The translations under genes were made by a program, and so were the position numbers. A stretch of DNA of 64,000 nt, taken from contig QCET01000004.1 in NCBI GenBank assembly GCA_003280495.1, forward strand, positions 1 to 64,000, written 5' to 3'. The notes below the pieces were generated by a model. It was not told the origin of the DNA, did no database searches, and saw only the letters and a program-made list of their open reading frames with translations. Below, in pieces: positions 41,498 through 41,814 of the stretch (position 1 is its first letter; each line of letters begins with the position of its first letter). The stretch is from Pelagibacteraceae bacterium AG-359-E06 (GTDB lineage Bacteria > Pseudomonadota > Alphaproteobacteria > Pelagibacterales > Pelagibacteraceae).

Positions 41498-41700
41498 TAA
41501 AAAAAAAGCCTTACTTAGTAGTTAGGTTCACCGAAATAAACCTAAAAACCAGTAAGGGCTTTTAGTTGGTTCGTCATTTTAGCACTACTGCCGAACCGCT
41601 ACTCGTGAGTGTCTAAGTGCTACCTTCCTCACGCTTTCTGCATACAACATTTGGCCGAAACCTCTCCTTGCATGTCAGTTGAGGGTCACCCCTCAATTAA
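41498..41700 (-). ncRNA. Candidate structured non-coding RNA
   Basis: Read on the minus strand, the order is as follows. A 7-bp hairpin closed by a GUGA tetraloop (41690-41696 with 41679-41685). A 10-bp helix CUG-a-CAUGCAA/UUGUAUGCAG (41668-41677 with 41638-41647). Then three interleaved helices: 41628-41633 with 41604-41609 (6 bp), 41616-41622 with 41580-41586 (7 bp) and 41592-41597 with 41568-41573 (6 bp), which is a double-pseudoknot arrangement. Last comes a terminator. One helix has a pair that is G-U only on the minus strand, which supports this strand. It does not match tmRNA, RNase P, SRP or 6S RNA by the motifs known to me. Confidence 0.6.
41500..41563 (-). terminator. Rho-independent terminator of the candidate RNA
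   Basis: On the minus strand a stem joins 41551-41560 (AGCCCTTACT) to 41507-41515 (AGTAAGGCT) with one bulge. A second 7-bp stem is nested inside (TTAGGTT with AACCTAA, 41522-41528 with 41539-41545). A run of about nine T residues follows. The plus strand has no comparable T run, so termination is leftward, upstream of rmuC. Confidence 0.75.
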
Positions 41701-41814
41701 TACTAATATATCAAACCTCTTAAAAATTTGTTATCTCCTTTTGATTGATTCTTTATTACTCTGTGAGTAGCGTGAATAAAAAAATAATGGTATTAGCGTT
41801 AAGGTTGAAAATAA

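Follow-up and report, generated by a model that had tools for sequence, protein, structure and literature searches.

The IMES-2 RNA of a SAR11 genome: a known family with predicted kissing loops and a stand-alone gene

Between rmuC (start 41302, minus strand) and selO (start 41815, plus strand) of Pelagibacteraceae bacterium AG-359-E06 lies a gap of 512 bp, in line with the roughly 500 bp stated in an earlier sequence-only reading, which placed an unassigned structured RNA here. Which RNA does this locus encode, and what could it do? The 64,000-nucleotide stretch of contig QCET01000004.1 that was analysed (the window) was scanned against all Rfam families and gave two matches only, a tRNA-Ser at 2414-2503 (ARAGORN/Rfam) and IMES-2 (RF02035) at 41703-41566 on the minus strand. 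The latter scores 88.2 bits (E 6e-21), above the gathering cut-off of 54.7 bits, and covers the full model (1-141) with few non-standard pairs. The RNA is therefore not unassigned: it is IMES-2, an already-known family, in a Pelagibacteraceae (SAR11) genome, and the Rfam scan proposed beforehand as the check on its novelty decided against that novelty. A permissive rescan of the gap against Rfam found no second family below E 0.7. Neither tmRNA (ARAGORN and Rfam) nor 6S RNA (Rfam) was matched in the window, in keeping with the lack of likeness to either that had been read from the sequence.

The original IMES-2 papers are reportedly those of Weinberg et al. 2009 and Shi et al. 2009. The transcript is reportedly very abundant in sea water and, to our knowledge, no function has been known for it since its description. 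In the portions of the literature reached by our search no paper discussing IMES-2 was found, the sole text match for the name being a giant squid genome paper. The present analysis adds to the known family a test of kissing loops, named hosts, sites without the RNA and an upstream element.

The window copy (all positions on the minus strand) has an RNA core at 41703-41566. P1 (41696-41679) is a 7-bp hairpin with a GUGA loop of the GNRA type; it is paired in 100% of cells across 65 homologues, with two-sided changes in four of its seven pairs. P2 (41678-41638) is a 10-bp hairpin with one bulged A at 41675, a helix that in the family shows two-sided changes in 9 of 11 pairs and is paired in 95% of cells. 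Two hairpins with large loops follow. P3 (41633-41604) is closed by CGUGAG/CUCACG (41633-41628 with 41609-41604; two-sided changes in 6 of 6 pairs of its main helix, 91% of cells paired), and P4 (41597-41568) by GGUUCG/CGAACC (41597-41592 with 41573-41568; 7 of 8 pairs, 99%). Six further pairs can join the two loops, AGCACU of P3 (41621-41616) with AGUGCU of P4 (41586-41581), and the conserved loop sequences flanking these strands, UAGCACUUAGAC and GUAGUGCUAAAA, are both present. A nested intrinsic terminator (41565-41499), indicated by sequence, folding and a terminator scan (one found against 0.2 expected), consists of a hairpin at 41565-41508 and nine U at 41507-41499. The segment 41703-41500 folds with an energy of -67 kcal/mol (z = -4.6), equalled by none of 200 shuffles. 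G+C makes up 47.8% of 41566-41703 but 30.2% of the window, and only 0.3% of 138-nt windows are as rich. The capped hairpin, the bulged helix, the T9 terminator and the raised G+C had each been described from the letters, and each is recovered here. Directly past the terminator, within 41496-41303 (minus), lie a near-consensus promoter, TTGACA-16-TATATT (41496-41469), and a leader of about 160 nt ahead of rmuC; promoter and leader are kept in one relative (G001) and absent from another (G002).

To what extent is this fold that of the family? Alignment A1 comprises 65 diverse copies chosen from at least 141 distinct sequences. Its 42 pairs fall within about 138 positions, and standard pairs fill 96.1% of 2707 pair cells, where shuffling gives 82% and slid structures give 32-42%; two-sided changes occur in 32 of the 42 pairs. 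Across the homologues, G-U cells outnumber A-C cells (the mirror case) by 196 to 16, which identifies minus as the RNA strand, as had been assigned. The loop-loop helix is 97.5% paired with two-sided changes in three of five pairs, and slid registers reach at most 64%. Its two strands occur as GCGC:GCGC, GCAC:GUGC, GUGC:GCAC, GUAC:GUAC, GAAC:GUUC and GUUC:GAAC, with UCGC:GCGA in two copies and a single mismatch (UCGC with GCGC) retained in eight. These shuffle statistics are inflated by the kinship of the sequences, and of the five measures used for kissing two, namely pairs and pair types, do not exceed shuffling; it is from the variety of matched pair types that we argue for repeated change.

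Compensatory changes, which the sequence-only reading had proposed to seek in homologues of its three interleaved helices, thus appear in P3, P4 and the loop-loop helix, and covariation supports that reading's claim of a minus-strand, non-coding RNA about 200 nt long that is structured, has interleaved helices and ends in a terminator. The helix order 1-2-1'-3-2'-3' corresponds to the P3 stem, the loop-loop helix and the P4 stem. The interleaving stands; the term "double pseudoknot" does not, as the topology is that of a kissing-hairpin pseudoknot with one pseudoknotted helix. Judged from covariation across the alignment, the interleaved helices are a kissing interaction between the loops of the neighbouring hairpins P3 and P4, a helix that Rfam's nested model of IMES-2 does not contain. 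Loop covariation cannot separate kissing within a molecule from kissing between molecules. The P3 loop (window 41627-41610) is exactly 17 nt long in 65 of 65 A1 copies, and the P4 loop (window 41588-41577) ranges from 11 to 14 nt.

IMES-2 is ordinary for SAR11. In the window's family 37 of 60 genomes carry it, always as a single copy, and in the sister family none of 40 does; a class-wide sample gave two of 115 genomes, both Pelagibacteraceae. The copies come from marine bacteria, with relatives named as Pelagibacteraceae. Scanning public genomes with a DNA pattern yielded many more copies, and among the matches listed the named hosts are Pelagibacteraceae single-cell genomes and MAGs. While its lack in 23 of the 60 family genomes stems partly from incomplete assemblies, four near-complete single-contig genomes (G005, G007, G018 and G039) are also without it. 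Diverged copies were sought in 29 genomes without IMES-2 using a covariance model (R1) built from A1, and the best E value was only 0.3, although models tuned to IMES-2 could overlook a very diverged copy. Within the window's own genus, RNA and terminator are near-identical in three genomes, and similarity to the relative G002 stops just past the terminator. Copies from outside this genus are about 46-62% identical to those within it, and in the window's genus P2 is rearranged, with a UUCG-type cap where others have GAGA. An origin in phage was considered and rejected, as phage records and viral contigs gave no match (viral contigs were scanned with a single exact pattern).

Comparison of 157 loci places IMES-2 in four unrelated gene contexts, the neighbours being named from a reading of their proteins: mnmA and a convergent membrane gene; a tyrosine recombinase and ogt; nuclease-like and SRAP-like genes; and, as in the window, selO and rmuC. 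IMES-2 is therefore tied to no single gene, and the convergent neighbour in the mnmA context excludes a leader role there. In four genomes of a Pelagibacter-like genus (g4; G005, G018, G026 and G034) the order recombinase-ogt is intact with no IMES-2 between the two genes, and in most of them other short reading frames can be seen by eye in the gap. The analysis places IMES-2 in named SAR11 genomes and identifies relatives in which a site that is otherwise alike is without the RNA. Upstream element, promoter, RNA and terminator together make up one self-contained gene unit. The four contexts and the sites without IMES-2 argue against cis-regulation and favour a dispensable RNA that probably acts in trans.

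Several observations concern the recombinase context itself. A mobile element was rejected as an explanation, since the adjoining tyrosine recombinase is widespread in the family and is also found in genomes without IMES-2, and so is not linked to it. Just upstream of the recombinase gene in loci L228-L235 (in L232 at about 1225-1262) is a near-palindrome, TTACTATTGATAACnATTAATTATCnnTAGTAATA, which resembles a dif-type recombination site; sampled GC skew flips sign nearby in one genome (G042). Glycosyltransferase- and methyltransferase-like genes that vary by genome adjoin the recombinase (L038, L050, L073, L093, L098 and similar loci), which puts IMES-2 of this clade at the edge of a variable region.

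Upstream of the RNA, the DNA is conserved as well. Element A, TTTATTCACGCTACTCACAG (41761-41780, minus), is kept in nearly all copies; it spans 20 bp, and an iterated weight matrix shows it as a tandem of 9-mers, near TTATCCACA and CTATTCACA in sequence. Its distance to the RNA start falls into two groups, 75-80 and 84-89 upstream, about one helical turn apart, as expected of a protein bound on one face of the DNA. The window copy scores 24.8 bits (median of true copies, 23.3) and the best unrelated site 14.7 bits in about 0.38 Mb searched on both strands (the window and two relatives); true copies at the low end, a few per cent of them, overlap background scores. A pattern search of eight genomes found no excess of element A elsewhere, and by these scores the element appears private to the IMES-2 gene. 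We know of no description of this tandem repeat. The 9-mers are similar to the DnaA box of other bacteria, yet a search of six single-contig genomes turned up no tandem or clustered exact DnaA boxes, and a candidate DnaA site is for this reason only suggested, by analogy. Closer to the RNA is element B, ATCAATCAAAAGGAGATA (41732-41749, minus), with the consensus AWCAACTAAAAAGTGATA; it covers the -35 region and has its best match at -45 to -48 in every copy with enough upstream sequence. The -10-like hexamer TATATT (41705-41710, minus) aligns with TATGATTTAAT-like sequences in relatives. The likeness of element A to DnaA boxes had suggested an origin of replication here, but neither GC skew sampled near the gene nor counts of boxes there pointed to one, and the idea was rejected.

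Taken as a whole, we assign a probability of roughly 0.85 to the identity, fold and stand-alone nature of IMES-2 as described, a figure that does not include any protein-binding step. On this layout, transcription of an RNA of about 200 nt would start at a conserved promoter belonging to the gene and stop at the gene's own terminator. The RNA would act in trans, would not be the leader of a neighbouring gene, and may move, be lost or be gained as one unit; its transcription may be controlled by a protein that binds DNA at the tandem upstream element. A cis-acting leader or riboswitch is hardly credible: ogt does begin shortly downstream on the same strand in some Pelagibacter-like genomes, but neighbours differ over the four contexts, leaving no constant same-strand downstream gene such as a riboswitch calls for; of the two largest groups, one has a convergent neighbour; and in the window a terminator and the separate promoter-like site stand between IMES-2 and rmuC. 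How the stand-alone RNA would act is a matter of more tentative readings. The compact molecule may bind a protein, or hold a protein complex together, through its fixed shape, our best guess, drawn from compactness and put forward tentatively. Base-pairing regulation is a common role of bacterial RNAs of this size, and a stand-alone gene with a strong terminator would suit a regulator of mRNAs, perhaps acting via Hfq and the U-rich tail. Conserved unpaired stretches are nonetheless short (42 pairs in about 138 positions), except in the mutually pairing P3 and P4 loops; few long single-stranded stretches remain, which makes protein binding likelier than an antisense role, and we consider the latter unlikely.

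The kissing loops themselves suggest a different possibility, in which the P3 loop of one molecule would pair with the P4 loop of another to form dimers, rings or chains, after the manner of other abundant ornate RNAs. Loop covariation is equally compatible with such pairing, and the P3-P4 linker of 3-6 nt, short for an end-to-end kissing stack, makes it worth considering. The P3 loop core is also self-complementary in 40 of 65 copies. There is precedent in GOLLD, ROOL and OLE, whose homo-multimers involve intermolecular contacts that covary, among them kissing loops (PMC12286853). Those RNAs are much larger, however, and loops of 17 and 11-14 nt would permit a side-by-side fold within one IMES-2 molecule, such that self-assembly, too, seems improbable on balance. 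Were it combined with synthesis tied to DnaA via the two tandem boxes, the result in SAR11 would be an RNA particle that is dispensable and coupled to replication; this joint proposal is a long shot. Rather doubtful is a functional stand-in for 6S RNA that binds RNA polymerase. The 6S model (RF00013) matched none of 100 genomes of the order and 5 of 14 controls, Caulobacter included, although it may overlook diverged copies, and 6S is not among the RNAs listed for P. ubique (PMC2704228). Against this, IMES-2 has no long rod with a central bubble, and many family members are without both RNAs, which precludes a one-for-one replacement. Protein binding, self-assembly, antisense pairing and a 6S-like role are not mutually exclusive, and with hosts, sites without the RNA, promoter and loop pairing in hand, simple functional tests become possible.

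Among known systems, IMES-1 (RF02034) is another RNA family named from marine sequence; as a partner family it was considered and rejected, its model giving no match in eight genomes of the order, nor in any positive control. 6S RNA resembles IMES-2 in being a stand-alone non-coding RNA of about 200 nt and differs in its rod with a central bubble. GOLLD, ROOL and OLE are, like IMES-2, conserved non-coding RNAs with covarying loop contacts (PMC12286853); in these larger RNAs homo-multimer assembly has been shown, and for IMES-2 it is a candidate reading. With IMES-2 of Rfam (RF02035), the window copy shares both the modelled hairpins and the conserved loops.
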